Shown here: positions 6,420-59,778 of the stretch, one piece after another
How positions within the stretch are numbered: the first letter of the stretch is position 1
How the letters are laid out: every line of letters starts with the position of its first letter
Source of the DNA: Pocillopora verrucosa
Lineage: Eukaryota > Cnidaria > Anthozoa > Scleractinia > Pocilloporidae
Length of the DNA: 64,000 bases
Direction of reading: 5' to 3'
Assembly: GCF_036669915.1 (NCBI RefSeq)
Contig: NC_089319.1
Span: 3,019,082-3,083,081, forward strand
Program-made: the position numbers and the translations under genes
Notes under the pieces: model-generated
What the model was told of the DNA's origin: nothing
The model's input: the letters and a program-made list of their open reading frames with translations, nothing else
Database searches by the model: none

Positions 6420-8839
6420 TTAAATTCTCCAGAAGTCACCGGATGTAACAATTTTCTCAAAATTATCATCACATTGCCAAGCGTTCGAACTTGGCCAAGT
6501 GATCCAATGATAGCTACCCACAATAAATGCTGAGTATATATACAGCTCCTTATGCCCTTCATGTCCCCATTTTCCAACACGTATCGCACCGTTTTCCGTC
6601 CCCCATTCTACGCATCTACTTGCAAGGATTGAGTTGTCTCCCTTGAGTTTTTCAAATGAACCAAAGGCTTTGGGAAAAACGTCGGTATCACCGGCAAAGA
6701 ACCTGGCTACAGCTTCACCAGAGCTGTTCGCGGCCGTTTTGACATGAAACGTTCGTCCATGTTGCTGTTTATGGCAGTGGAATCTCAGCTGAGTGAAAGA
6801 TATGCGGGATCTCAACTCTCTCATACCGTCAAGAGAGAGAACCATTCGGTTGCTGCTGTAACGACTGACTCCTGCATATGTTGTTTCAATATTCAAATAG
6901 GTGGGGGGCACAGTTCCCCCAGCAATAACGTTATAGACTAGGAGCCAGCCTCCTGCCAGAAATTAAAAAAGAAAATGTGAATCGCACTTATTGGGAGACC
7001 AGAAACAAGTCTGTTTTTCTTACAATAAAAAATGGGGGACTTCTAGTTATGCCTTTGCGCCACGGCGCAAAAGTATGGTCTTTCCCTCTACCTACCGGCT
7101 TTATCTATTTAAAGAAGATAATTTGGTAGAATGGTTTTGTTCCTTTGTTATCACCTCGGTGATTCCAGATAAAAACCCTGCTTAACCTCAAGCTGGAGCT
7201 TTTCTCTGTATTTCTGCTGTTACTTCTTTAAAAGAGTCTTAAACAATCCTGCTGGTTTGGCTCTAGCCTTTTGGCACTTTCACTTGAAATGCGGGCCAAA
7301 CCTTATACTCCTCCCCTAAAACAGATGTTTTTGTTTGTCCGTAGCATTCTTTGAATGTTTTTTCTGTATTTAATTATTTTGCAGCAATTTTTTTCCTCAG
7401 GTTCAAACAGCACAAAGGTTACCTTTGCAGCCTTGCTCTTCTATGCACAGCCAAAATTACAGAAACCAGTTATTTACAATGCTTACCTCCATCAGTTGTC
7501 ATGTCACAAAATACTTTTAAAGAACTTCCATTTTTCTCTGGGTCGATCCAGTACTCTCCGTCTTTTTGGAAGAAACTTGAGTCCCAGATGTCCTTACACG
7601 AATGACCAGGCTGATTGAAATATAAGCCTCTGGTAGCTGAAAAGGAAATGAGCTTTAATCTTAATGGGTTTATTAATCTTCACACACCGGTTAAGATGTT
7701 ATGAATAGGGGAAAAAGCTAAACGCAAACTTGAACACGATTGTCCGCATGTATCTTCAGAAATGCGTTTTAAAAGGAGTTCCCAATTCGAAATTTACACC
7801 ATCCTCATTGCACTTAATTTTCATGTATTTTGTTTGGCAACGTGTAAAGTAGAACTTTTCTAGAACAGTCTCACCACTTACGTGTTTCACAATGTTTTCC
7901 TTTGTATTCCGGATGACACTGGCCGCTTTTAGTTATTTGTTTTCGCCCGCGGGAAACATCCATGCAGGAGGCCTGATTAGTAAAACAGAAAGTTAAACGT
8001 TTTTCTTCCCGTTCTGCTATCGATTGTTTTTCAGAGTAAACAAAGCTTGTTTTCTCGTTATCAGTATTCAGACGCTCAATTTGCGTTTTCAAAAAGGACA
8101 TTTGACGTTGCCCTTACATTCATGTCAACATTCAGAACATGCTATACAAGCAGAAAAGAAACCTTTTTGGTTCGCAGTGTGTTGCAAAATAGGAATTGCA
8201 AAAAATGAAAAACTCGCTCGGAGAAACGTTTGCCCGAGACTTTTAAGTGCTTGGTGTTCTGTTTACAAAGTGAACGCCTACTTATAAGCCAATAAAAATT
8301 GATTCTCTCAGTTTTCATTAGTATATAGCAGTAGTACCGAAACATTGTTTTTGGCGGTGAATAAGATAGGAAAGTTATCAACAAACCTGCTTAACCCAGA
8401 ACCCACCTGAACAGAGCTATAGTATGTAGATCCTTTTTTCTTTTTAAAATGACCTGGCTTCATCTGCCGTGTTTTATTATTCAACTCACAGCTACGTTTT
8501 CCATTGCCTTCACCGGGATGAACATTGATCGACTTACAGCTGTTATTTCCCATACATTTTAACTGGCATTCAAACTCGTCCACAACAACATTTGTCTGGA
8601 TAACATGACCCACCAAGGCATGGTCTGAAAGGCAAAAAACGTTCTCTCTAGTAACTACAGCTATAAAAAGAGAGTATACGAATCGGTTGGTTTTGGTTTT
8701 CTTTTTTTCGAAGTATTTACTCACCGACTTGAGTTTCAAAAACGCTTCCACAAAAGTCTTTGTTCGCCAGGACAAACGGGATTCCCAAAAGGATGTTAAG
8801 AGTAACAGTGGCAAACTGGGTTCGCCATAAAACAGCCAT
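6420..8839 (-). CDS. Copy B of the PAN/EGF/fibrinogen-like secreted protein gene, fibrinogen-N exon half deleted
   Basis: Minus-strand exons: 1 8839-8725 (signal peptide, MAVLW start), 2 8624-8407 (PAN/apple-like), 3 7972-7882 (EGF-like, with SGQCHPEYKGKHCET), 4 remnant about 7570-7487, 5 6952-6420 (C-terminal domain, stop at 6422-6420). Exon 4 has lost its 5' half and its acceptor: sequence matching copies A and C stops after GEYWIDPEK and resumes in the upstream intron across a short filler. Exon 4 is a phase 1-1 exon in the intact copies, so skipping it keeps the frame and would give a protein of about 318 residues without the fibrinogen-N module. All other exons are open. A longer ATG-started frame (from 8940) is frameshifted relative to copy A and is not the real start. 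Whether B is still expressed cannot be seen, so it is either a shortened paralogue or a young pseudogene. Confidence 0.55.
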
Positions 8840-17505: not shown

Positions 17506-20500
17506 TTAACGGACATAAATCTTCCAAAAGTCGCCGCGCGTCAAATTGTTCCGATAGTCATCACATTCCCATCTGCCATGGCCTGGCCACGTGGCCCAAT
17601 GATGGTAATATGCAATGAATGCTGAGTATATATACAGCTCCTTATTCCCTTCATGTCCCCATTTTCCAACATGAAACACGCCGTTTTCCTTCCCCCATTC
17701 AACGCATTTACTTGCAAGGACTGAGTTGTCTCCCTTAAGTTTCTCAAATGAGCCACAGGCTTTGGGAAAAACGTCGGTATCACCGCCGAAAAACCCGACT
17801 ACAGCTTCACCAGAGCTGTTCGCAGCCGTTTTGACATGAAACGTTCGTCCATGTTGCCGTTTACGGCAGTGGAATCTCAGCTGAGTGAAAGACATGCGGG
17901 ATCTCAGCTCTCGCATACCGTCAGGAGAGAGAACCATTCTGTTGCTGCTGTAGCGACTGACTCCTGCATATGTCTCTTCAATATTCAAATTGGTGGGGGG
18001 CACAGTTCCTCCAGCAATAACGTTATAGATTAGGAGCCAGCCTCCTGCCAAATATTAAAAAAAAAATGTGAACCGCGTTTCTTCGGAGACCGGAAACAGC
18101 TCTTCCACGACTCACTGTTGTTTTCACAGTAAAAAATGGGCTACTTCTAGGTATGTCTTTGCGCCACGGCGCAAAGGCACGGTCTCTCCCTCCACCTACC
18201 GGCCTTATCGATTTAAAGAAGAAAAGATAGTAGAATGGTTTTGTTCGCTTGTTATAACCTCAACGGCTCCAGATTGAAACCATGCTTTAACCACAAACTG
18301 GAGTTTTTCGCTGTTTTTCAGCTCCTGCTACTCTGAAGGAGTCTTAAAAAAATCCTGCTGGTTTGGTTCCAGCCTTTTGGAACTTTCACTTGAAATGCAG
18401 GCCACGCCTTAAACTCCTACCCTAAAACAGACGTTTTTGTTTGTCTTCTTTTGTCTGTAGCATTCTTTCAATGTTTTTTCTGTATTTAATCATTTTTCAG
18501 TATGTTTTGGTTTTTTTTTTATTCCTTCTCAGGTTTAAATACCACAAGTGTTTACCTCTGCAGCCTTGCTGTTCAATACACAGTCAAAATTGCGGAAAAG
18601 AGTTATTTGCAGTGCTTACCTCCATCAGTTGTCATGTCACAAAATACTTTTAAAGAACTTCCATTTTTCTCAGGGTCGATCCAGTACTCTCCGTCTCCTT
18701 TTGAGTCTCCAGCTTCCAAAATCTGCTTGCAGGACAGAGCAGGATGACGGGAAGACCAGCCAGGTACAGCTGCGAATTTAAATATGTGTTTATTTTTTAG
18801 TGTCATGGTTCAGGATCAATTGCCAAATAATTTGGCTTTGTAGAATAGTTGGGCTATGTTTTTATCCATATGGACCATCTTGGTCGCGGATGGCTGTTCT
18901 TGGTCAGCAGAGTAATATAGACATGGAGGATGTGAGATATTTAGGACCATTTACTTATGCAGTCAAACGTAAATTTCTTCTTGGTGTAGCTGTACCGAAT
19001 GAGATGTGAATCACGACACACCCGTGTATGTGTTTCTGTCTGTTTCTGTTTTTTCACTCGCAGGTACAATAAAAAACTTGCATGGTAAGGGCTTATGGAA
19101 GTTGAAAACATGGAGTGTTTCTCACGTGTTAGGCAGCCTTTCCCTTTGCGTCCTGGATGACAATGGCCGGAGTTTTTCGCTGCTTTCTCATCGTGAAAAA
19201 CTTCAATGCAGGAAATCTACGTTGAAAAAGATTCGGAACATATTATACCGGTCAAATCTAATTATTAAACGTCTCTAAATATTTGGTGAACAGTTTTAAA
19301 AATTTTTTTCAAGTTTTTCGAAGTTTTTATGTATTTTGATGGCGTTTTTATGTTCAAATAATCAAATATTGCAGTCATGGTTGCAGATTCTAACAGTTAA
19401 TTCCGATTCATTTCTCCTTCAAGTTCAAAGCAACTAAATTATTTGAAAAGGAAATTTTGCACATTTCTCAGGAACCGAAGTATTTTTACTTCTTAGTTTC
19501 AATTGAATTGTATTTTTTGGTAAACTTGCCGATCATAAATAACTGAGAAACTCTTTTTAAAAATCAGAAGATAGATGGAAGCAATGAGACAGAGAACTTC
19601 AATAAACTTTGTTCAAACTTAACTCTTAGTGGACTTTGCAACGACAGGAATTAAGTTCCAATAAGCACCAATGATAAATCGATAAGCACGGAAAGTATAT
19701 AGAAGAAATTCCATCTAACCAGTTTCATTGTTTAATTGCAAAAATAATTCGTCGATTCATTTCCTCGCTCGAAATAAATATCGATGACAAGGTAAGCACT
19801 AAACCCGAAGGAATCGTATTTTGTCATTCGAACTTTGTTGAAAAAGTTAAAAAAAAAAAAAACAAACAAACAAAAATATATATTTCCCATCGTATTTTGC
19901 CATTCGAACTTTGTTGAAAGAGCTAAAAATACAAAAATATATTTAGTTTCAGTAATCAAAGAGCGAAAACGCGACTTCGTGAAACGGGAGTTGTCAAGAT
20001 CGCCGATTAATGAATTTAAGTATGAACCAAGAAAACGTAATTTAAAGGAATTCACGCAAACAACTGAACTTACCTGCAACAAATCGTAGTACGTAGATCC
20101 TCTCTTCCTTTTAAAATCAGCTGCTTTCATCAGTCGAGTTTTGTTGTTCAGCTCACAAATAACATCGTTTTCCTCCGGGTAAACGTTACACGATTTACAG
20201 CGGCTTTCCTTCTCAATACATTTCTCCTGGCATTCAAATTCGTTTTTAACAACACTCTTTTCCATGACATTACCAACAAGAATATGATCTAGAAGTTATG
20301 AGTACATGAAAATCTCTTAAGAACTGGTGAATATCGCTACTGTTCTGTTTATGATTGTCTTACAAATGCAAATCGAAAGAAAAGGAATTCATTTTCTACG
20401 GGTTTTCTTTTTTTTCACTTACCAACTTGGGTTTCGAAGACGCGTCCGCATAAGTCAGAGTTTGCCATCACAGATAAAATCAGGCAGGAGATGATAAGAA

Positions 20501-22081: not shown

Positions 22082-23327
22082 TCAACGGACATAGATTCTC
22101 CAGAAGTCACCAGATGCAGCAATTTTCTCCAAAGTATTATCACATTGCCATGTGTTAGAACCTAGCCAAGTGATCCAGTGATAGCTACCCACAATGAATG
22201 CTGAGTATACAGACAGCTCCTTCTGCCCTTCATGTCCCCATTTTCAAACACGATACGCGCCCTTTTTCATCCCCCATTCTACGCATCTACTCGCGAGGAC
22301 TGAGTTGTCTCCCTCAAGTTTCTCAAATGAACCACAAGCTTTGGGAAAAACGTCGGTATCACCGCCAAAAAAGCGACTACAGCTTCACTAGAGGCGTTAG
22401 CGGCTGTTTTGACGTGGAAAGTTCGTCCAGGTTGCTGTTTACGGCAGTGGAATCTCAGCTGATTGAAAGGTAAGATTGTTCTCAGTTCTCGCATACCGTC
22501 AGGTGAAAGAACCAGCTTGTTGTTGTAGTAACGATTGATTCCCCTGTATGACTTCTTAACATCCAAACTGGTCGGGGTAGACGACTTATTTATCACAATG
22601 TTATATATCAGAAGCCAACCTCCTAGCGATAGAAAAGAAAGAAAATATTTTAAAAAGATGTAGATAAAATGGCAGGATTCCTCCTTTTTCTAAAACTATA
22701 TAAATTGTATTCCCAGCGCGCAGTGGTTATAACATTAAAATCTTCTACAAGTACACCATATCGTCACGGCAACCATGGCGACTGAGGATATCATCTGAGC
22801 CTCTTTAATTTTTTTTGTGGGCCTTTTGTAATTTCTAGACAACACCGAAGACAAATTAAACCTTTTTAATACATGGAAAAGAGATAATAAGGCGACGACT
22901 TGTTTTATTTTTTTTTCGAAAGTTGAAGGACCCATGATCTGCTTCCTAAGCACTTATCTGTTTTATTTATCTTTTATACCTAACAAATAAAATTATATTT
23001 CTAACCCCTGATTTGAGTCTGATTTAGTATTGCACTGGTTACTTAGGGTTCACTAACTCTTTTTCACACAAAAACAAATCATAATCACTTGTGCCTCATT
23101 TACACAAGGAACATTTATTTCTTCAACTTCACGGAGAAAAATTTTAATTATATTCGAAATGTTATTTCACCACTTACCTCCATCAGTTGTCATATCACAA
23201 TATACCTTTAAAGGGTTTCCATTCCGTTCAAGGTCGATCCAGTACTCCCCGTTCCCTTTAGATCTTCCAATTTCCCGTATGTGCTTGCAAGATTGAGCAG
23301 GATAACTGGAATGCCAGCCAAGAACAG
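22082..23327 (-). pseudogene. Copy E, 5'-truncated and frameshifted PAN/EGF/fibrinogen-like gene
   Basis: Two exons are recognisable: the fibrinogen-N-like exon 23327-23178 (150 nt, open, CDMTTDGG at its end, strong GTAAGT donor) and the C-terminal exon 22622-22082. The latter has two lesions. A one-base deletion in a T run near 22,365-22,372 shifts the frame just before the segment that reads GDTDVFPKACGSF in copy D. Further on, the GGA of KWG-preceding VGK is replaced by TGA near 22,253-22,255. Past both, the frame ends normally in GDFWRIYVR. No EGF, PAN or signal-peptide exon was found up to 24,850. Confidence 0.8.
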
Positions 23328-45332: not shown

Positions 45333-48300
45333 ATGAAGCTTTTAGTTACCATTATTCCCTTGTTCGTAGGTCTGTCGACATTTTCACGGTAAGCTTTCGC
45401 TTTAATTTATTTATCAAGATAAAATTAGATAGCAACAGTGCGATTAATGCGTCCTCGTTGTTGTAATAATACCTTTTCTGTCGTAAAGAAACACTGTAAC
45501 GGTTGTAAGCTTATCATCTTGTATAAAAAGTATACAGATCATGCGTGAGCAATTTAAAATTTAGTGCGCCGCTTGCCCTAACACACAAATTAGTTGAAAG
45601 GCGTGGAGAAGCCGAGCTCAATTTCGCAACGGAATGAGTGCTTTGGTTTGTTATAACTAGGGGCACTGTATTCTTCCTACTTCCTATGCATTCATATTTT
45701 TGTTTATTCAATTATTTGCGCATAAGCCAAGTTCTGAATCACAGCTGGATTACTATTGATCCTGACCGAGCTAAGAAAACACTGCGCATCTATCTGCATC
45801 CTAGTGAGATATCACCGCTAAGGTCGAGAAAGAGAGCTGCATGGGATCAGTTTGTATTGTAATGGAAATTATCAGCACTTTGGAGTATTCACTCTATCAA
45901 AAGATAAACTGTAAGGAAATGAATTGAAAGCTGCGCTGAACTGCCAGATCAAAAATCGCCTTTTATGGTTTAAGTATGGAATGTGCTTTTTTTGGCCACT
46001 AAAGCCACGCTGTCATGAAGCAATGATCATTATATTTGAATAAGTCACCTTCGCGCTCTAAACTATGGAAAATAACTGACGCGACTCTTATCTGTTGCGT
46101 AATTTTTACGCACGATAGGTTTCAGCTCAAAAGACGCGTTCGTTCCATATCAATAAACTTGATTTATGTATTGTGAGCATGTCTTCCGCGACAACAAACA
46201 CACGAATACTATTTAAGGTCAAAGTGGCTCAAAATGGTTTAATTTTCCTCAGAACCAGGTCTTTGATGGTTCGAATTCGTGGTTACTATATTAAAACTGA
46301 TCTTTAGATGTGCAAAAGTTTACAAATGTGACATTTTGCCCCATCAGTCGGTTGGCAGTCAGTAAAGGGCGTGTTCGCTCATCTGGAAAAATACGAGTTT
46401 ATCGGACCAAAACTGTGGAACAGTATGTAGCATCGATGTTATGTCGGCACACTGGATTTTAAGCATAATAATGAACCAGAAGAATCGAGTATTACACTGG
46501 AATAATAACGCAAAATAAATGATTAAACAAACAATAACTTAAAGAAACCATTACCTTGATTGTACTTATTTTTATGTTAATTAAAATGGAGCCTAACGGT
46601 GATGGTGTTTGAATTTTAGGGTGACATTTTCTGAGCACAAAGAATTAGCATAATAATGTAAAATATGGAGCCTAACTGAACAAATCTAATCAACACCCTT
46701 CTGTTAATCTGCGCTCGTGGGAGAGCTTTGAGAAAATTAAAAAAAGTAAGAAAGCGTTCCATTTGATTGAAGTAAAGGGAGAGAATTGGAATTCGACCGT
46801 CAAGCTCCAAAACAAGAGTACACCACAACGATGATTTTTTTTTGGCCGAAGATCATTGGTTTTTATTCCAATATCGGAAGCAATACTTAGAAAGTGAACA
46901 ATACAGTACTAATACAATTTACGTTACAATACTTATAATACTATTAATAAAAATACGTTGCTTAAATTTTTAATAAGGGAGAGTTTCAAAAACAACAACA
47001 AAACACATTAACACCAGTTATGTAAAGTAAATATAATTGTCAATGAGCTAGGTTAAAAATTACGATACATGCTGGAAACAAAGTTCTTCGTGCCTACACC
47101 GAGAGTGCACCCCACCCCCTCCTAAGCCGATACTGAATTTTTACCAGACCCTAACATCCATTCTAAATGATTTGTGCTTTGCTTTTGGGTTAAGGTTTGC
47201 CTCGGCTGTCGACTGTGAGGTGTCCCTACCTCAACACGCCTCCCCTAAGTGTGCAGCCATCAGAAATGCTACTCTAAACAAACTCAAAGAAACTTATACC
47301 ATGAAACCAAGTCAATACGGCTTTGTGCTGTTGAACATGACCATTTCTGAGCTGGGAGCTGTCGCCCTAAAGGACCCATTTATCAGTTACTACGTCAGGG
47401 CATACGTGGGAATGACCCAGACAAATAACCAGATTTTAGCGAAGTACAACAACGCAACTGCAGGACAAGAAATAACTGGATTGTCGGACTATCTCGAGAT
47501 GTCAGAGTTTTTCCAGACAGTTCTAGAGCCAGTACTTGGGGTAAATATAATTTTCTTCCCTGTTTATGATGTAAGGGTGTTTTGAGACCTGCAAGAGGGC
47601 TCCACGATTGGACAGCACAGCTATTGACAAAGCCCTCCTTACTAAAACAAATCCTGAGGTAAAAGGTTCAAACTTCTTCGTTCCGGTACACGGGACTTTC
47701 CCTCTACATAGCGTAGCTTTGTTCGGGTTGTTCCACTGAGCTCCCATGTTGAAGTTAGGGGGACTTCCAAGATGAATCCTGAGCGAGAGGAACAACCTTT
47801 TTTACTGTGGTCTTCGTTGCTGAGTTCCAGATGATGTCTCTTTTTCAGTTCTCGTTTCTATTCTTCAGGTATTCTCTAGATTTTCTAGAATTTTCCACCA
47901 TCCTTCCACCTTCTGAGCTCCACCTCCAGGCTTGTTTTCACAGTAGCTGGTCTTACCAGTGGCCTTTTCTCGTAGCATTCGACCCACTAAGTCCATTCCT
48001 GTAAGGTTGTCATCTGATTCCAGTCAGTAAACAAATTAATTAATTATTTTTTTGCCTCTAGGAATATATGAGGTCGGCTTCAAGGCACGAAGCATTTATT
48101 GACGACAAAACCCAATGGATTAGCGATAAATTTTTCGCTCAGCAGCGTCTAGCAGGGAATAACCCGTTGGCAATCAGACGGGTAACCATGAAAGGTCAGT
48201 AAGGTAGAACTCATTTTTAATGCACGGCAAGAGATTATCAACCGACCTATAATTTCTTGTATAGGGTCAAATCTGTACTGAAACTAAATGGCCCACCCAG

Positions 48301-51300
48301 AGAAACGCCATGGCCCAATGAATACTGCGCAGGACTCCGGGTCGAGTCCTGGCTTTGTCAATGAGTATTGTTCTTGGAAAATATATTTGACGCTCACATT
48401 GCCTCTCTCCACCAGGAGTGTAAAAGGGCACCGGCGAATTGTCAGTACGACCGACAAAATTGTGACAAACGTATGCCCGGGGCAGCTGACAGTGGGATCA
48501 TTGTAGTGCATTATGGGCCACCAGATCAGCTGAATGACATATTAACACAAATGAGTACGTAGTGACAGACGGATGGACAGCGACACTGAACTGCCTACTG
48601 ATAGTCTTAGGCTGCGTAACTGACAAACTGATGTAGTATATATATTTATACATATAATAATACTGACTGTTTGCCCTGCCTCAGTGATAAAGACAATTTT
48701 TAATGTATGCAACTTAGGATGTGCAGCAAAGACAATTCAAGGGGCGTGTTGCCGTTTCCCGTTTAAATATCTTGGTAAAGTTTATCGTCAGTGTACGAGG
48801 GCAGGAAGCCACAGGCCTTGGTGTTTTACGGCGGCAAAGAAACGGGGAAAGAGACTGAAATGGGGATATTGTGCAGGTAGAATGAAACTTATTCGTTCAG
48901 TAATTGTCTTAAATCATATTTCACTTTGTTGTCTTCCGTTAACTCATGCGTTTATTTTTCTTTTGATTGATTTTTCATCTTTTGATGAAAAATTAAAACT
49001 GATCCTACACTTAACATACTTCAACTAAGAATGCATGCTCATGATTTCACAACAGCAACACTTAGCGTTGCACCTAATGATATTTCTACGAGTTGTTACA
49101 GAGGTGCCAGAGCATAAGAATGAATATGACTAAATGGTAAAGTTTCATACCCAATATACGACACAAACATAGAAACCCATGTTTAGCGCCAATCTCTTAC
49201 CCAGATCGTACCGTGTAATTGCAACTGCTTGGCCGTGAAAGGTCTTGGTATGAGACTAGTTCAGCCCTTAAAGCGGACACAATTTTACCATAAAGCCCAC
49301 AAAACCCATTTTGTTGTAGTTCTCGACGTTTTAATTTTTAAGTTCACATGATCACCACACTTCTTTCTCAGAACAAGAACCAGAAATATCAGGACTGGAT
49401 TTCGGTATATTGAAGAAGACAATGAACCTTGACTTTGACTGGGATGGTGCCGTCAGAGCGGCTTTGGGAACTGGTGGTTCTTTGGAAGATGTATGTTCGC
49501 TTAATTTGTTAACTTCAGTGACAAAAGTCTGAGGTGTGAGTGTGCATAAAAATCTCCTCGCAGAAAAATGGTGTCTCTGAGCTTTTAACATCAGGTTTTT
49601 CATTTTGATTTGTCTTAGTCTTTAACTATGACAGGAAAGTCTAGGAACGTTTCAACTTATATGGCCTAATCCTTGTTTTTCTTGTACTTTAGGCGATAGA
49701 GCAGGGTCGCATTTATGCTCTTCGTTACGAGTTGTGCGACGATTTGGGTCGAGCTCCTGACCTCACAGAAAGAGATCCTCAGAGGGAGATGTGGAATTTC
49801 CTTTCTCCCATCGCTTTTTTTGCATCAAAGACGGTTAGAGGAAAAAGGAATGAATTTGTACCTGTTGCTATACAAATGGACCACCCACCAGGTTAGCTAC
49901 AATAGACGTTTTGGCAAATAATGACACAAATACCATTGCATAAGAGTGACGACTGCACTCAGAAAAGTTACCACCAGTGGAAATTGTGGAGGAATTCCTG
50001 ATACCTAACTGCACTATGTTCCTGCCTCTGTTACTCGTAATCTCGAGGCATGAGTTCCGTTACTGTAAGCTTAAACCCTTAAGACTCACTTTAACGTTAT
50101 TTATATCATCTTTGATAGATTCAGTGGTGTATACTCCAGCCGATGGAGACAACTGGTTACTCGCCAAGCTTAATGTTCAGATCACAGACATCGGATATGC
50201 TCAAATCACTGAACATCTTGCCAAGGTAAAATCAGCTGAACAGTTCATTTATTACTAGGAATTAAGACGTAATTCATTTTTCGTGCAACAACAAGATGAA
50301 AAAATATCAACACCCAATTTTCTATCGAATTTATTTGCAATTTAGCCGACAGATTTCTGGTCCCTCTGAAAAAAACTATCCTCTTTTTTACCTTTTGTTT
50401 GCTTTTTTTCTTGAGGGCATATTCAAACCCTTAGCCTTCTATTGGCTAAAACACAAAAAGATTATAGCAAAGAAGTAATATCGCATAAGAAGATCAATTC
50501 AATCCCTATTTTAAAAAACAAAACAAAATAGAACTAAACTGAATCAAAACAAAGCAAGGGGAAATGATCTAGCGCCAAGGTGTAGGGTTTGGATTATTAT
50601 TGGGGAAAGTGATTTACTATCAGTTTCAAACCAGCCCTTTCTGTAATATGAAGTGTCATATCGAGTAGTAGACATCCGTAAATAAGTGAAGAATATCTTC
50701 TTATTATCCTATAGATCCATTTCTTTGTGGAGCCCTTTTGTGTCTCTTTAAAACGTACCCTGCCGCCCATGCACCCGTTGAACCAAATGCTGAAGTATCA
50801 TTGCCGAGAAGTGACCATCCCAAATACATTTGGAACACCTGTTCTTCTAGGCGATACTGGATTCGCAGCTTTGCTGTTTGCATATGGAAAAGAAGGGGCT
50901 TTAAAGCTTATTCGAGATGTACATCCATTGACATCATGGGAGATAACTGACTACAGGGAAAACATCAAGGTATTTTTTATCCCTCACGGTGCTAAGCTTG
51001 AAATATACCAGAGGGTATCACCCTTGCGCTACATATTTAATACTTCGTTAGATTATCTACGTTTCTGTGGCGTAAAAGCATATTTTTACTTTCCCAACAA
51101 AAAAATACTTCGTCTGGAATATCTTAATGTGTCCTTTTCAGGCTTCTCCTGAAAAAGTATCCTAACTGTTTAAGGGTGTAGAATGGTCTTCTAGATACTT
51201 TTATAGAAGCGTATAGCCATTCAGATCTGAGGAACGATCCTACATTTTCATGTAAATTTACGAGAATTTGAACAAACAGAAAACTCTACACGACAATTCA

Positions 51301-54300
51301 AATATGCAGGACTTTCGAGCTAATCGTGCATAGGCAAAATGATGAACACTTGAAAAGTTTAAAGAAGTATTCACCACTTCCTATTTGCATGTTATACAAG
51401 AAAGGATACTGAGAGTAATGGTGTTTGTCGAAACATTTTATACTAGACTGTGATATAGTATCACCAATGTATAGATTCTTCATACTGGTGGCCTCCTAAT
51501 TTCAACTTGTTGAATTTTTAACTAAATTGTAAATTTATCTATGTTGTTGAGCGCATCTATATAATTCAGTTCTAATTTTGGCAGTTAACTTCAAGTATTT
51601 CAAAATTTCCTTACGGTAATCAATTAAGGTCATTTCAACTAAGCTAGTGTTGCTTTATTTTAACCAGAAACGTGGAATGTTCGACAAGAATCTTCTACCA
51701 TACTATCCTTTCCGAGATGATGGTTTGGTGATCTTAAAAGTAATCGAAGATCTAGTGAGAAGTTACATTGACTTGTAAGTGAAACTGTTGATATACATTC
51801 GACTCGATATCTGTATAATCTGTTTATTCTGACTTGTATGATCTGGTTTGACAAAAATGAAAACAATAACAGTTGAATAAAGGAAACTAAACGAAACGAA
51901 ACAATGCGAAATGAAATACTACCCACGAAATTTGCAAGTCTGAAGGAAAACTTGATCCACCAAACGCAAAACTCATGAGCACATGGTCTCGAGCATAATA
52001 CGCATATCTAACCCAGTACCACGCGGGTAGAGCAAATCTAATTGAGATGTTTTGCAATCAACAGAAATTGTATGCTGCAGTGTTCTAAATCCATGCTCTG
52101 AGGAGCATTGAGAGAATTTTCTTGTGAACAGAAAAACAAATGAAGGAGAAAAATGGGTAACCGTTCTGATAATGAGGGCATACAATGGTTTCAATTTTTT
52201 TTTCTTTTGTGCCGATCGATCAAAGCTTTGTTTGACTTAGACGACACTTAGGAATAAAAGTTAAAAAAACTGGGAAGCACCAAACTGGTAGTACAAAAGC
52301 AAGAAGGAACAAAAACTGATGCCTGAGATGGAGGAGATTAAAAAGGAATCCAAATGAAGATTTTGTAAATTGATTGGTTCAACGTTTTTCGTTGCACACC
52401 TCACGACGCAGCACTGTTAAGCTAACAATCTAGACTAGTGGCGATCAAAGGAGGGAATGAATATCAAATTCAAATTTCGTGACTTTTTTCGTTTAGGTAT
52501 TACAGAAGTGATCAAAACGTGAAGGAAGATGTGGAACTACAGGCGTACCTGAATGAGGTGTCACTGGATGGAACTGGACCGAATGGAGGAATTGGTCAGG
52601 TATATTAAAATGTGGGTTATGGAAAACCTCAGGTGTACCAAAACCATTGTTAATCATACCCATCTGATGAAGTATTGATATCTTTATTGAAAACTTGTGC
52701 AGCATGATGCATGTACCCACAAGGTTCCTTGTAGATTGTTGCTTGGGGTTGGGTCGGTACAGATCAGTACAGGCAAGGAGTTCGAAGCAAAACCGAGGTG
52801 TAACAACAAACACAGGTTGTACGCTTGCTTGAGAAGAACGACCTAACGTCGTCGTAGGATCCAAACTGACTGATCGCGAGTGACTTACGCTTCTTGAGTA
52901 AGCCACGTCACAAAGTACACATCACAAAATTGATCAATCAGTTTTAAAAGACAAGAGTTGTAAACCGCCTCTACTTACAAAGAGCTTCTTATTTAATGCT
53001 GATGATGACTTTCGCCTAGGGATCAAACCGTTATCCACAACTATAGATTAACGTCATTAACTTCAAGATCTGAACAAAAGATTTCTACATGAACTGTACA
53101 TCCACAAGGTTTCATATAGTTTTTTTAGATCACTGAAGAAATTTTTGGTCGAGGAAATACCATTGAGTGACAAAAAAGTGCTTGTTTACCTGTTAGTCTT
53201 TATCTTTGATGTCTTCAACAAATAAGCCCATCAGAACGATCCATCCTTACTTATGACTCGGAAGTCACGAATTTATCCCATTTGAGTCTTGTGGCCAATT
53301 CAACCCTCTATGGCAAAATTGACCTATACTATAAGACCACGGGATCACAATTTTTTGTCTGTAATGCTACCTGAAATGTACGCCCTTTGCACATTCCATG
53401 ATGTTTTAAGTTACCGCTAAGGCTGATGACATTTCGTTCTCTTCCTCGCAGATAAAAGGTTTACCACCAGGTGTTGACTCCAAAAGAGAGCTCTGTGAAA
53501 TTCTAAGTCGTTTTATTTCCCACTTGACTATCTATCACGCGTCGGTCAATTACGTTACAACGGATTACCCAGAATACATCCCCAACCAACCAACTAAACT
53601 TTATAACGACTCCAGAGTGGAAGATGGACAATTCTCCTTTCTGCGACTGCCAAACAGAGCTGCAAGCGCAGTGAGTAAAAGTTTTGTTGACTTTAGTTCC
53701 TCTGTTTAGTTTATGGTTAGGAGTAAGATTAACATGACTAGGTCTACCATTTTTTCATGAAAATGAGCTTTAATTGGTCGTATCATTGGAAAGCTCCCAC
53801 CACTCATCATCTCGCCTTACGTCTTTTATATACGATAAGATGGAATTTACTCTGAATCATGTTATTATTTCACCTCTTCGTCTGTTTATCAAAATTGCGA
53901 TTCCTCAAGGAATAAACGATGTCAAATCATGATAGTGTCTTGCTTTTGCATCTGGCACAATCACCAAAAAAACTTGATAGAAACTGAAACTAAGAAGACT
54001 CTAGACAAGGAAGACACTGTAAAAAAATTGTTTTCACATCGTTACTAAACACTTTGGAGCTGCAAGTACAACAGCATTTCTTCCTTAACAAGGGTAGTAG
54101 TCAATTACAAAAGAGGGAATTTCTAAGTTGGGTAAAATTTAGCTTTAACTCTTTTAAATATCCTCAATTCATCCCTATTAAGAAATATTTGGACCTCGAT
54201 AAATTTATCCTTCACGAATATCTCCGTCACTTGTCGAGGAAGAAGTTATGGTTTATTTCCATTTACACAGCTCAAAAAAAAAACTTCCCTGCCTATGAAA

Positions 54301-54623
54301 GCTTGGTGGAGAACTCGCTTGTGTAAACACGACTGCAGCTATGCGTTTTGGACCCTGTTCGCTTGGTACTAACTGGTTTCTTTTTGCAGATCCAGTCAAC
54401 TGCGTTCAATAGTCTGGGAAGTTTCCGTTTCGATTCTTTGTTTGACTACGGCAACGAGCTTGACGACACTAAGGCTGCGAACCTGGTCAATGCATACTAC
54501 TGTCGACTAATGGACAAGGTTCAGCCTAATTTGCAAGCAAGAAACCGTCTGCGGGAGAAGAATGGCTACCTCGCATATCCGTATTTTATCCCAAAATGGC
54601 TGCCCAATGGCATTCAGACTTAA
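45333..54623 (+). CDS. Secreted lipoxygenase-like protein with an inserted fibronectin type II domain, 678 aa
   Basis: Lipoxygenases oxygenate polyunsaturated fatty acids with a non-haem iron. Exons: 45333-45388, 47195-47540, 48062-48194, 48718-48876, 49372-49490, 49693-49891, 50119-50225, 50715-50969, 51668-51774, 52497-52599, 53452-53670, 54390-54623; all GT-AG and in phase. Residues 1-24 form a signal peptide (MKLLVTIIPLFVGL, likely cut after ASA), and there is no PLAT domain. The lipoxygenase domain starts before residue 135 (FFAQQRLAGNNPLAIRR) and is interrupted at 179-231 by a fibronectin type II module. Iron ligands: H370 and H375 (EHLAKIH), H557 and N561 (YHASVN) are present, but the C-terminal residue is Thr (PNGIQT) where animal enzymes have Ile. 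Other family marks: LPPMHPLNQMLKYH and PYYPFRDDGL. Likely extracellular. Iron binding is probable; activity, regio- and stereospecificity cannot be judged. Confidence 0.9.
45389..47194. other. Intron 1 of the lipoxygenase gene
   Basis: Large intron (1.8 kb) between the signal-peptide exon and the mature N-terminus. No gene seen in it. A minus-strand frame at 46616-46828 has no recognisable features. Confidence 0.6.
48416..48554 (+). other. Possible alternative exon preceding the FN2 exon
   Basis: The frame after CACCAG reads ECKRAPANCQYDRQNC, ends ILTQM at a GTACGT donor in phase 1 and joins the FN2 exon in frame. Its phase 0 start does not fit the exon 3 donor at 48194, but does fit an alternative donor CGG|GTAACC at 48181. 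Using both would give a 720-residue form. The peptide has three closely spaced Cys and resembles nothing that I recognise. It may be an optional exon or chance. Confidence 0.4.
48718..48876 (+). other. Fibronectin type II domain exon inside the lipoxygenase gene
   Basis: This exon encodes one complete module (GACCRFPFKYLGKVYRQC, then RPWCF and KWGYC) with the Cys and aromatic spacing of the FN2 family, known for binding collagen/gelatin, phospholipid head groups or mannose in other proteins. It starts and ends in phase 1 (159 nt), so it can be inserted or skipped without a frame change. Acceptor AACTTAG, donor GCAG|GTAGAA. Confidence 0.85.
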
Positions 54624-55381: not shown

Positions 55382-58300
55382 TCAACGACTGTCTAGTTGA
55401 ACATCAGTAATCCATGATTGGCTCTCACGAATGAACTGATTATGACCTGGACGTAATTCCGTTACTTTACATGTTGGTGTCTGAAATGCTTGGAAAAGAT
55501 TGTTAACACCAGCAGCGGTGATCTGATTATAACCCAGATCAAGTTTGGTGAGTTTACATGTTGGTGTTTGTAATACTTGACATAGACTGACAACACCGGC
55601 ATCGGTGATCCGATTATGACTTAATTGTAGTGTGGTGAGTTTACACGTTGGTGTCTGCAATGCTTGACATAGACTGACAACACCAGCATCGGTGATCTGA
55701 TTATGACACAGGTCAAGTGTGGTGACTTTACATGTTGGTGTCTGTAATGCTTGACATAGACTGACAACACCAACATCGGTGATCTGATTCTGACACAGGT
55801 CAAGTGTGGTGACTTTACATGTCGGTGTCTGTAATGCTTGACATAGACTGGCAACACCGGCATCGGTGATCTGATTAAGACCGAGATTCAGTGTGGTGAC
55901 TTTGCATGTTGGTGTCTGTAGTGGTTGACATATACTGGCAACACCGACATCGGTGATCTGATTACGAAACAGATTCAGTGTGGCGACTTTACATGTTGGT
56001 GTCTTCAATGCTTGACATAGACTGACAACATCGGCATCAGTGATCAGCGCTTCTACCAGACCCAGTTCATTTAATTTAGATACTAGCAACGATTCCCCAA
56101 GTAAATGAACACATTTTTCCTGCAATACACAGTCATACAGGTACAGTTCGGTAACAGGGCTGTACTTTTTCTCCAACGCCTTGTAGATTACTCTTAACCC
56201 AGTCTCTGAAAGATGACATTTCCAGAGCGTCAATGTTTTAGCCAGCGCCACAGATGACTGTTGAAGGGGTCCTTGTTTCTCCCCAGTGATTTTATCTGCA
56301 TTCAATGTCCTAATGACATCTAACAAAAACGCTACAGCAGTGCAATCCGCACCGGCCAACTTTTCAAATTCAATAACTCCATCACGATCACAAAATTGAT
56401 GGAAACGTTCCTTTACAATTCTTTGGGCGAAATTCTTCTCTTGGTACTCCATGATGCACTGCAGTTTTAGCAGTTTTGGCAGTTTTGGCAGTACTCCAAC
56501 CCTAATGCTGTACATCCAATCGAGTCTTTCAAGTAACGCTCTCATAAAGAATTCGTCCTTTTGCTTTGATAAAATACCAGACATAAACTGAAATATTATT
56601 TCTGACACATTGTCTCTGTGTGAGGGGATCTGTTTTCTCTTCACAAACCAACGAGCTGCCAAATACTCTTGGAGAGTGAAATGCGTGAAACAAAAATATT
56701 TCGTCGTTTCAGTGTAAGATTTTCTGAAAGGAGGACCGCAGTGAAGAAGACCGTTCGCTCTTAGGCTTTTAACTTCTTCTAAAGTAAACCTTTTCATATC
56801 TTTTAAAGCGAAAATAAACTTCCTCTCCTGAAGCAAATGAGCCGCAAACTCTGACATTTTGTCCAGAGTATCTTCGGAAGAGACTGCGGACTCCTTATCA
56901 TGTTTTCCTGGAAACATGTTCACAACCTCAAAATAGATTTCACTTGAGTTGACCGGGAGGACGTCAGTGTTTACTGGTTCATTTAGGAGGTATTCAAAAT
57001 AAGAGCACATCAAAAAACAGACAACTGGAATGTGGGCGAAGCTGACAAGATTGTCATTCTTTGTAATGTGATCCATTACAGCATTCTTCATGACTTCCTT
57101 TTCGTTGAAATACTTCTCTACGTATTTCTTCACCTGTTCTTCGGTAAATCCTGTAATTTCAACGTACCGATCAAAGCCAATTCTACTTGTCATTTCATCA
57201 GATTCATCGGGCCTTGAAGTTATCATGACAACGGAATCTCTCAAGAGTTTTCCTTTGATCAGCTTGGCACACAGGGCTGCTACTGGCATTTCCTCATGAG
57301 CGCTATTCGGGTAACGGTCATCCCAATCACTCTCGATGAAATTTCTCTTCGAATACTCATCATAACCATCAATGAGGATCAAAACTTCTTCTGAATGATC
57401 AAGAATGTACTCAAATACAGAGTCTTCGATATTTGAGTGTTCATCCAGGACTGAAGATCTGTTTAAGATATCCCTCAAAGTAACACGGTCATCTCCAAGT
57501 GAATTCAACTGGCGGAAAGTCAGCAAATATGCGAACTTCAAATCCGGCAGCTGCAAGTTTGCTTGTGTTTCAAACAACATGTTGTTGGCCCAATCTCGAA
57601 TAAACTTTTGGAAAAACAGCGTTTTACCAATCCCTGCCTTCCCAGTAACTAAGACAGACCTTGGTATTTTTACCACGTTACGATCGGTATCACAAATGAA
57701 AATTTCTTGATTATGTTTAACGGGCTCTCCACTCACTCGACCGTACTGGCGTAAGCGTTCTTTCCTTTTCATATCTTGGTCTTCAATTGGCTTTCTTCCG
57801 TGTTGTATGAGAAGACTTGTGTATATGTCATCTGTTCTGGCCTTCTTCATGGTGGGGGAAGGTAAGGTATGAAACTCAGTTCGGCTTTTTACTGATGCTT
57901 TCAGTGCGTTTGTGTATGCCGCTACAGCTGAAAATAAGACCAGATCAGAAGCATTCAATTCTTTCGTCAAGTTTAATTTTTGACCGAATGTAATTTCAAG
58001 TTATTTTTTTACTCAAATGTGAAAGTTCTGCAAATCTCACGCTTGCCTGGAGGAGTTAATGTTCATTATTTTTTGTCGATGGTTTTTTAATTCTTTTTTT
58101 CTTGAATAGCGTATTTTTCCGTCTGATTTCTCAATTTTTTTTACGCAAAGTGATGCGGAAAGAATTGCAAAGGTTAAACTTTGAAAAAGTAACTTAATGT
58201 ATATCCACTTATTTCGAAAGAAGCGTAATGTATTTCATCATTCTCATTGTTGCATGGCTATCTCGAAATTAATTACAGATTATCTCGTTGAAAGTTAATA

Positions 58301-59590
58301 TCAATCCCAAAAGTTTTCCCTGAGATAAGCAAAATAGAAACTCTAAAAATACTTTTCGGCAACTATTTGGCTTACATGTCCTATTTTACTTTCCAAGGAC
58401 TGAATATTAATGTCTTATCTTCATAGAAAACTGACTAAGTTTCGACTTTGCACCATTTTAATGAGAGGCTCTGGATGCACATAATGGTATCTTTCCCCCC
58501 CCCCCCTCCCCCCTAACAGTAATGATCCCAAGCCACCTGCCTGTCTTCAATACATTTACACTGTGCGGCTGTTAGATAAATGTAAGCTATAAGAAAAGAG
58601 TAGAAAGGCATGCGAACTGCCCTGGGTAAACGCAACCGACCCATGTGATGTCTTTTTATGGAGAAAAAGTTGCCCCAAGTTTCACAACTTTGTCAACTTT
58701 GATATGAATATTAAATTCAAACTTGGCTCTGAGGCTTGGGGGAATAAAACGAAAGAAATCACATCGAGGTTGAAGGTGAATAATTAATTTCTTTTCTTTT
58801 ATTACCCCTAGCCTTGGAGCCATGTTAGAATTTTTAATATATCGAAAATGGCTTATTATTTACCTCCAACTCCTGTTTTCTTTTCTGGATTTTCTATGGA
58901 TTCTTTCCAATCATCCAGCTTGCGAGACAACTTTTCTTCTATTTCATCTAATCTTTCCTTGACGCTGACTTCATCCATCACCCACTGTTTAAGAAGCTCT
59001 TTGTAGTATTCTTCGAAATCAGGGTCTATGCATTCCTTTTTCAAATCATCAATGGCACTTTGGTAACTAGCTCCTCCCAGTCTCACCAACGCGCCTTGGA
59101 TGTCCTGCTAGTATTGATTGAATGTTGGATCATCAACTGAGGCCTGGCTGACATGACCATAAACTGTGTTTCTGTAGCACTTGATGCGAACGACATCTGC
59201 CTCAAGGGTTGTGTCTGTTGCAGGAGGAAGTGTATCCCAGCCGGTAGCTGGACGAACAAGACCGCATATATTCCTCAGCAAAACCATCAGTAGAGTGATA
59301 TCGAAATTCTTTGATGAAACTGCAGATTTGATGGCAGGATATAGTTTTCCCCATTGAGAAGGATTAAGAATTCTTTTCTTTCGAAGTGATTGTAAAACTG
59401 CATGAACTGGAGGACTTGACAAAACTGAGTTCAGGTCTCCTGTTGGTCGGCTCTTATCAAAGGCGTCTCTTAAGGCATCTGAGCCAGCATCCACCAGAAG
59501 CCTGCATAACCGGGCGTAATTAGTTGTCTCTTTTGTTGAATGGTATGACGGTGTTGCTACGGAGGCCATGAAGAAATCTTCCTGAATCAT
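55382..59590 (-). CDS. HEPN-NACHT-LRR receptor (NLR family), two exons, with an in-frame TAG in exon 1
   Basis: Exon 1 59590-58864 joins exon 2 57927-55382 in phase 1 (GGA G|GTAAAT to TTTTCAG|CT), giving 1,091 codons. Exon 1 encodes a DZIP3/hRUL138-like HEPN domain with an RNTVYGH (R-x5-H) motif. Exon 2 encodes a NACHT ATPase with Walker A GKAGIGKT (near 57,643-57,620) and Walker [11 protein letters not shown], a helical region, and seven LRR units. NLRs are cytosolic sensors that oligomerise on ligand; HEPN-type N-termini are common among cnidarian members. Oddity: TAG at 59110-59108 interrupts exon 1 between FNQY and QDIQGAL, where related proteins as I recall them carry Trp, so one base change (TGG to TAG) would explain it. 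The rest is fully open, which suggests a recent null allele, a sequencing error, or reinitiation. Two ATGs are possible (59590, 59569). Confidence 0.85.
55436..56044 (-). repeat. Seven tandem 87-bp units encoding the NLR leucine-rich repeats
   Basis: Seven exact-length units of 29 residues with consensus [18 protein letters not shown] followed by K-x-TTLDL-x-x-NQ. Units 2-6 are nearly identical in DNA, while units 1 and 7 are more divergent. All lie in one exon. The variable positions fall on the LDLxxNQ strand, the usual ligand face of this repeat class. Confidence 0.85.
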
Positions 59591-59652
59591 GATCAGAATG
59601 AAATGAATTACTTTTCCTGGATGGTATGCAAGAGTGTTACTAAACTGCGGAT

Positions 59653-59778
59653 TAGCCTAATACGTACGAGATGCGTCAGTGACTAACGTCAACCGAACGA
59701 ATCAACGAATCTGTCAGCCTAATACGCACGAGGTACGTCTGTGAGTAACGCCAACCTGGAACGAATCCACGGGAAGCA
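59653..59778. repeat. Tandem duplication (period about 62 bp) just upstream of the NLR start
   Basis: GCCTAATACGTACGAGATGCG at 59655 recurs as GCCTAATACGCACGAGGTACG at 59717, each followed by a similar 40 bases ending in AACGAATC. Located 60-190 bases before the NLR start codon, in its likely promoter or 5' UTR. Confidence 0.65.

Follow-up and report, generated by a model that had tools for sequence, protein, structure and literature searches.

The stretch of DNA analysed here (the window) comprises 64,000 nucleotides of the Pocillopora verrucosa genome, in contig C8, and contains a lipoxygenase gene with a fibronectin type II (FN2) exon in its catalytic region. The gene model spans positions 45333-54623 of the forward strand and consists of 12 exons encoding 678 aa, with the stop codon at 54621-54623. 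All introns are GT-AG and their phases are consistent. An earlier sequence-only reading had proposed a phase-consistent exon chain with boundaries at 45333, 48194, 48718, 48876, 49372, and 54623, and our splice-chain translation reproduced these coordinates and the 678-aa product. The features of the gene, all on the forward strand, are as follows.

45333-45388 (+): exon 1, start codon ATG and the greater part of the putative signal peptide (MKLLVTIIPLFVGLSTFS); 56 bp, with equal phase in the inverted neighbor L031, and hydrophobicity
47195-47540 (+): exon 2, remainder of the putative signal peptide, then the N-terminal region with C26 and C38; counterparts in paralogues
48062-48194 (+): exon 3, ends after NNPLAIRRVTMK in phase 1; matching phase-1 junction in 8/8 tabulated paralogue models (11 loci)
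48195-49371 (+): host intron (FN2 exon and flanks), 1177 bp; the corresponding intron of L031 is 343 bp
48718-48876 (+): exon 4, FN2 module, 159 bp, phase 1-1 candidate cassette; Pfam, splice scoring, and PDB matches; an alternative acceptor would give 48685-48876
49372-49490 (+): exon 5, GLDFGILKKTMNLDFDWDGAV segment; exon chain
49693-49891 (+): exon 6, catalytic domain; exon chain
50119-50225 (+): exon 7, WLLAK motif plus H370, the first His ligand of the iron; exon chain and alignment
50715-50969 (+): exon 8, second iron-ligand His (H375); exon chain and alignment
51668-51774 (+): exon 9, catalytic domain (PYYPFRDDG); exon chain
52497-52599 (+): exon 10, catalytic domain; exon chain
53452-53670 (+): exon 11, H557 and N561, which complete the side-chain iron ligands; exon chain and alignment
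54390-54623 (+): exon 12, C-terminus PNGIQT and stop; exon chain and paralogue alignment

An inverted paralogue, L031 (C8:3083114-3088878), has its coding end ∼30 bases past the right end of the window. A splice-aware alignment of L031, guided by the window protein, gave 11 exons with the phases of the window gene and a first exon of 56 bp in both. Because these 11 exons are of equal phase, exon 1 and the other junctions outside the FN2 exon are supported. The L031 and window proteins are 64% identical. Between the two genes, on the reverse strand at 55385-59656, a series of ORFs encodes HEPN_DZIP3, NACHT, and LRR domains one after another, and these ORFs probably constitute a single NLR-like immune gene. 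Three similar ORFs (GGWLLxYNV...) are also present on the reverse strand of the window at 6420-6962, 17506-18054, and 22279-22689.

The lipoxygenase and its family

A Pfam search of the 678-aa protein, with matches listed up to E 1, returned the lipoxygenase domain PF00305 (E 3.2e-39, 135.4 bits against a cut-off of 23.6) and the fibronectin type II domain PF00040 (E 1.5e-10, residues 190-230, 41.3 bits against a cut-off of 22.2), and no match to a PLAT domain. The sequence-only reading, which had suggested such a domain search on the translated chain, had described a PLAT-less lipoxygenase with an FN2 module between the NNPLAIRR and DFDWDGAV segments; PF00305 and PF00040 both score over their cut-offs, PLAT is absent up to E 1, and the FN2 match falls at the named place. 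The signal peptide that it had read is likely as well. The most hydrophobic 15-residue stretch of the protein begins at residue 3, and the hydrophobic N-terminus is followed by ASA and then VDC, as signal peptides would have, a reading made from the residues rather than by a trained predictor. The N-terminus of L031 resembles that of the window protein. The window lipoxygenase looks like a secreted enzyme, and it contains four N-glycosylation sequons.

The iron ligands of the window protein, which we take, following 5-LOX, to be H370, H375, H557, and N561, are all present in the alignment. The three His ligands are common to the 12 other aligned sequences, and the Asn is found in 11 of these, with His in the remaining one. 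The last residue of the protein is Thr, whereas the fifth ligand of a typical lipoxygenase is Ile (or Val). The terminal iron ligand is a carboxylate, which is supplied by any last residue. Because the three His, the Asn, and the C-terminal carboxylate are kept, the enzyme is probably active as a fatty-acid or phospholipid dioxygenase. This activity is not certain, since the C-terminal Thr is unlike the Ile/Val of the canonical lipoxygenases of the genome. The non-Ile/Val C-terminus lowers the claim of typical activity and leaves the match to the lipoxygenase fold intact. The same Thr could also be taken to indicate a secreted protein that is catalytically dead and uses the lipoxygenase scaffold for binding, and the model of one paralogue, L041, seems by eye to lack two ligands. 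We consider a dead scaffold quite improbable, as the window gene has lost none of the four side-chain ligands and a terminal carboxylate is available whichever residue comes last.

The window gene belongs to a family of PLAT-less paralogues, which were matched exon by exon using the FN2-less protein as the query. All nine family models that reach the C-terminus end in Thr (the family has 12 loci, and the nine include two near-duplicate pairs), whereas six canonical lipoxygenase models of the genome (of seven tried) end in Ile/Val and the bacterial relatives end in Val/Ile in 11/11 cases. The canonical lipoxygenase genes of the genome align with coral 8R-LOX. As a whole, the host family (L031-L042) consists of about ten genes with a C-terminal Thr. 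The distant paralogue L041 (C1:35996000-36005500) has, by eye and in a low-quality model, seemingly lost the first His and the Asn ligands, and is a possible pseudo-enzyme. Separately, C20:45960-49274, on a 61-kb contig, repeats the lipoxygenase locus C4:31120680-31123994, with one exon of equal score and another slightly different; this copy is perhaps an unmerged haplotype.

In a tree of 24 rows, the coral family forms one group (100/100), which is joined by two gammaproteobacterial rows, L044 and L045 (99/96), and stands apart from the canonical animal enzymes. A single clade of the coral family and the animal lipoxygenases was rejected (p-AU 0.00025). The coral family, whose 12 loci comprise the window gene and L031-L041, was represented by seven models, after the incomplete or low-quality models of L033, L035, L036, L038, and L041 had been set aside; L061 (of seven canonical-type loci) and L049 and L054 (of 11 bacterial loci) were also left out. 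Since the set is small, the branches are long, and the canonical rows lack their N-terminal parts, the bacterial affinity of the coral family is a lead and not proof of gene transfer, which is possible in either direction between gammaproteobacteria and the coral family. No relative was found in viral contigs.

The FN2 exon and its splice sites

In the alignment, the FN2 module is a clean insert between residues 178 and 232, and has conserved lipoxygenase segments on either side. Because relatives vary in length there (five of the seven aligned bacterial ones), the insertion place is probably a surface loop. A phase-1 intron after NNPLAIRRVTMK is present in all eight paralogue models that were tabulated, from 11 paralogue loci; L035, L036, and L038 were left out of this table, and the L032 model includes an exon of 6 bp that is probably an artifact. 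The intron is thus shared, and the FN2 exon is not: when the 11 paralogue loci were searched with the FN2 peptide (tblastn, E up to 1), no FN2 exon came up, and the two weak matches returned (E 0.07 and 0.18) were both outside the corresponding intron. Because the FN2 exon is 159 bp long and of phase 1-1, its skipping keeps the frame intact and leaves a lipoxygenase of 625 aa.

The genome is rich in FN2 exons. Across the 353 Mb searched, 96 FN2 matches were listed, among which the window's alone falls in a listed lipoxygenase gene; as the genome searches score best candidates only, both counts are minimum values, and another FN2 lipoxygenase may have escaped detection. The next-closest listed pair of an FN2 match and a lipoxygenase is on C5, ∼320 kb apart. 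The layout noted in the sequence-only reading was not found in the 11 paralogue loci or in the other listed lipoxygenase genes. A dense cluster of FN2 matches was observed at C12:18258882-18304490, some of them strongly basic like that of the window (L065 and L066).

The possibility that the exon was recently copied from another exon of its own genome was rejected, because the DNA of 48600-49000 has no second genomic match in a search that skips very common words, and because identity to the 74 other FN2 matches obtained with the peptide is 36-55%. Though no recent copy, the module retains its open frame, its splice ends, and six Cys, of which four are core (190, 204, 214, and 230) and two are additional (180 and 189). 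It also retains FPF, WC, and WGYC, and its CC pair is present in 17/17 other parsed FN2s. An open stretch of 52 codons occurs at 198 of 5162 positions when six of the other introns of the gene are joined. The profile match and the phase 1-1 fit add to the open stretch, and the FN2 exon is more than a chance ORF. Folded alone with a single-sequence model, the exon gave a pLDDT of 53.1, which is too low to read a fold.

Given how common FN2 exons are in this genome, the exon might belong to a separate gene nested in the host intron. An ORF scan (nine ORFs, four of them in the host intron) argues against this, as the ORF containing the FN2 exon is the only one with a domain match above the Pfam cut-off, and the phases of the exon match the lipoxygenase junction exactly. 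A nested gene is thus the least probable of the explanations considered here, and very improbable indeed. A zf-TRAF match in the host intron (E 0.011) is below the cut-off and was taken as noise.

The splice sites bear on whether the exon is used in the transcript. Scored with a matrix of 60 family acceptor sites (51 from six paralogue models and nine from the window gene, with both FN2-exon junctions excluded), the acceptor at 48718 has a score of 2.5, compared with a family median of 9.2, and three of the 60 sites score lower. An in-frame alternative at 48685, which would lengthen the exon by 11 residues, scores 3.2. The donor site has an ordinary score. For nine of 20 other FN2 exons, an acceptor scoring 6.5-14.4 precedes the CC pair by 29 or 32 bases; for the window's 48718 this distance is 29 bases. 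The other 11 were unusable: one was without a candidate, and in ten the best candidate was 2-26 bases before the CC with scores of -9.1 to 3.0, which were taken as internal AGs. Because its 3' splice site is weak, the FN2 exon may be alternative; it is perhaps a cassette exon that is only partly included. The weak acceptor argues against an enzyme that carries FN2 constitutively.

In its strongest form, this argument would make the FN2 exon an intronic passenger that is skipped in most or all transcripts, with the working enzyme being a 625-aa FN2-less form like the paralogues. The weak acceptor, the survival of the reading frame upon skipping, and the 11 paralogue loci without the exon are all consistent with a passenger. 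However, the donor site is ordinary, and the exon still has its six Cys, its GT-AG ends, an uninterrupted frame, and phases that fit, though no recent source of it was found in the genome; this would be odd for an old unused exon. This objection would weaken if the exon were a recent arrival from a donor that has since been lost. On balance, we consider the passenger explanation unlikely, yet the most probable of the rival explanations.

Charge of the module and known systems

The FN2 module contains 13 Lys/Arg and no Asp/Glu, and the lipoxygenase part of the protein has a pI of 5.6. With a net charge of +12, the FN2 core of the window is the highest of the 18 cores compared, the other 17 ranging from -3 to +9; the 20 FN2s fetched for this comparison were mostly those most like the window's rather than a random sample, and L074, L075, and L079 were not parsed. 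The best PDB matches of the exon are MMP-9/MMP-2, followed by PDC-109. In the alignment with module 3 of MMP-2, the NYDDDR loop corresponds to KKRGKR of the window module. The Tyr of this loop contributes to gelatin binding in MMP-2.

These comparisons bear on the ligand of the module. Its best PDB matches (MMP-9, MMP-2, and then PDC-109) and the retention of FPF, WC, and WGYC would fit a collagen/gelatin or phosphocholine binder that uses the classical FN2 pocket and tethers the enzyme to matrix or membrane. Against such a binder stand the alignment of KKRGKR with NYDDDR and a charge that tops the 18 cores, and we judge it improbable. The sequence-only reading had suggested binding to collagen or lipid head groups, an idea weakened by the replaced loop and by the 13 Lys/Arg without Asp/Glu. 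Given the strongly basic character of the module, which has basic residues where a Tyr-Asp loop is usual, an anionic surface is favored over collagen as its putative ligand.

Searches of open-access papers showed no FN2-containing lipoxygenase, in agreement with the sequence-only reading, which knew of none. The layout is new and its parts are known; annotated but unpublished eukaryotic orthologues may well exist. The best precedent is the FN2 repeats inside the catalytic domains of gelatinases. In MMP-9, FN2 modules lie within the catalytic domain. The same insertion is described for MMP-2 in the portion of the source available (PMC6416301). The gelatinases MMP-2/MMP-9 share with the window gene an FN2 inside the catalytic domain of an enzyme that is secreted (in the coral, probably so), and are also the best PDB matches of the exon. 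They differ in having three modules in a metalloprotease, as opposed to one in the coral lipoxygenase, and in having the Tyr-Asp loop where the coral module has basic residues.

For the host enzyme, bacterial lipoxygenases are among the closest known systems. One of the best matches to the window lipoxygenase is PDB 5med, which we take for LoxA. In the available parts of two reports, Pseudomonas aeruginosa LoxA has a signal sequence and is without an N-terminal PLAT-type domain (PMC10889196, PMC11011848). LoxA shares the lack of PLAT with the coral family, whose own signal peptide is a putative one, and the gammaproteobacterial rows L044/L045 group with that family. The bacterial relatives differ in that those aligned have no FN2, end in Val/Ile (11/11), and are 25-29% identical.

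Human 5-LOX and coral 8R-LOX share with the window protein the catalytic domain, a WLLAK-type motif, and the His/His/His/Asn ligands. The PLAT-type animal lipoxygenases are not known to carry a signal peptide. They further differ from the coral family in their PLAT domain and in the Ile/Val end seen in the six canonical models of the genome, and a common clade was rejected. Lipoxygenase and FN2 (or fibronectin type II) are also named together in the literature on apicomplexan LCCL/LAP (CCp) proteins. These proteins contain a lipoxygenase-homology (PLAT) domain and are not known to contain the catalytic one. According to the available part of PMC10889196, the PLAT-type N-terminal domain of animal and plant lipoxygenases contributes to membrane binding, and the PLAT-less Pseudomonas lipoxygenase still binds membranes. 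A survey of stony-coral lipoxygenases, as far as its accessible text goes, limited its tree to WLLAK-to-PNSIAI sequences and names no FN2 or secreted PLAT-less form (PMC5793058). Because of this restriction, as given in that text, the coral PLAT-less family would tend to be left out of the tree.

Proposed origin and role of the FN2 module

Our current hypothesis, which we hold with moderate confidence and favor over the explanations above, is that a secreted PLAT-less coral lipoxygenase gained one FN2 module by exon shuffling as an electrostatic tether, perhaps in anchored and free forms. A phase 1-1 FN2 exon would have been shuffled into an old phase-1 intron, within the catalytic domain and at a probable surface loop. 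The basic module on an acidic enzyme would then act as a probable electrostatic tether to an extracellular anionic surface, for which membrane lipid, a sulphated mucus or matrix glycan, and a microbial envelope are candidates. In doing so, FN2 may assume the targeting role that PLAT has in other lipoxygenases. With a weak acceptor, and with a frame that survives skipping of the exon, the gene may produce an anchored form as well as a free one.

A more elaborate version of this hypothesis is a splice-switched lipoxygenase, in which the FN2 form would be anchored through its basic module to an anionic extracellular surface such as mucus, matrix, or a microbial envelope and make oxylipins there, the FN2-less form would diffuse, and FN2 would replace PLAT in a lineage of bacterial affinity. 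We offer this version tentatively, and regard it as unlikely in its entirety.

Surveys in which a PNSIAI C-terminus is a requirement may have overlooked the host family. If the module is used, an FN2 in a secreted PLAT-less lipoxygenase would represent an independent answer to the targeting problem that PLAT solves, parallel to that of the gelatinases, and such an enzyme would give a handle on the sites of extracellular oxylipin production in corals.
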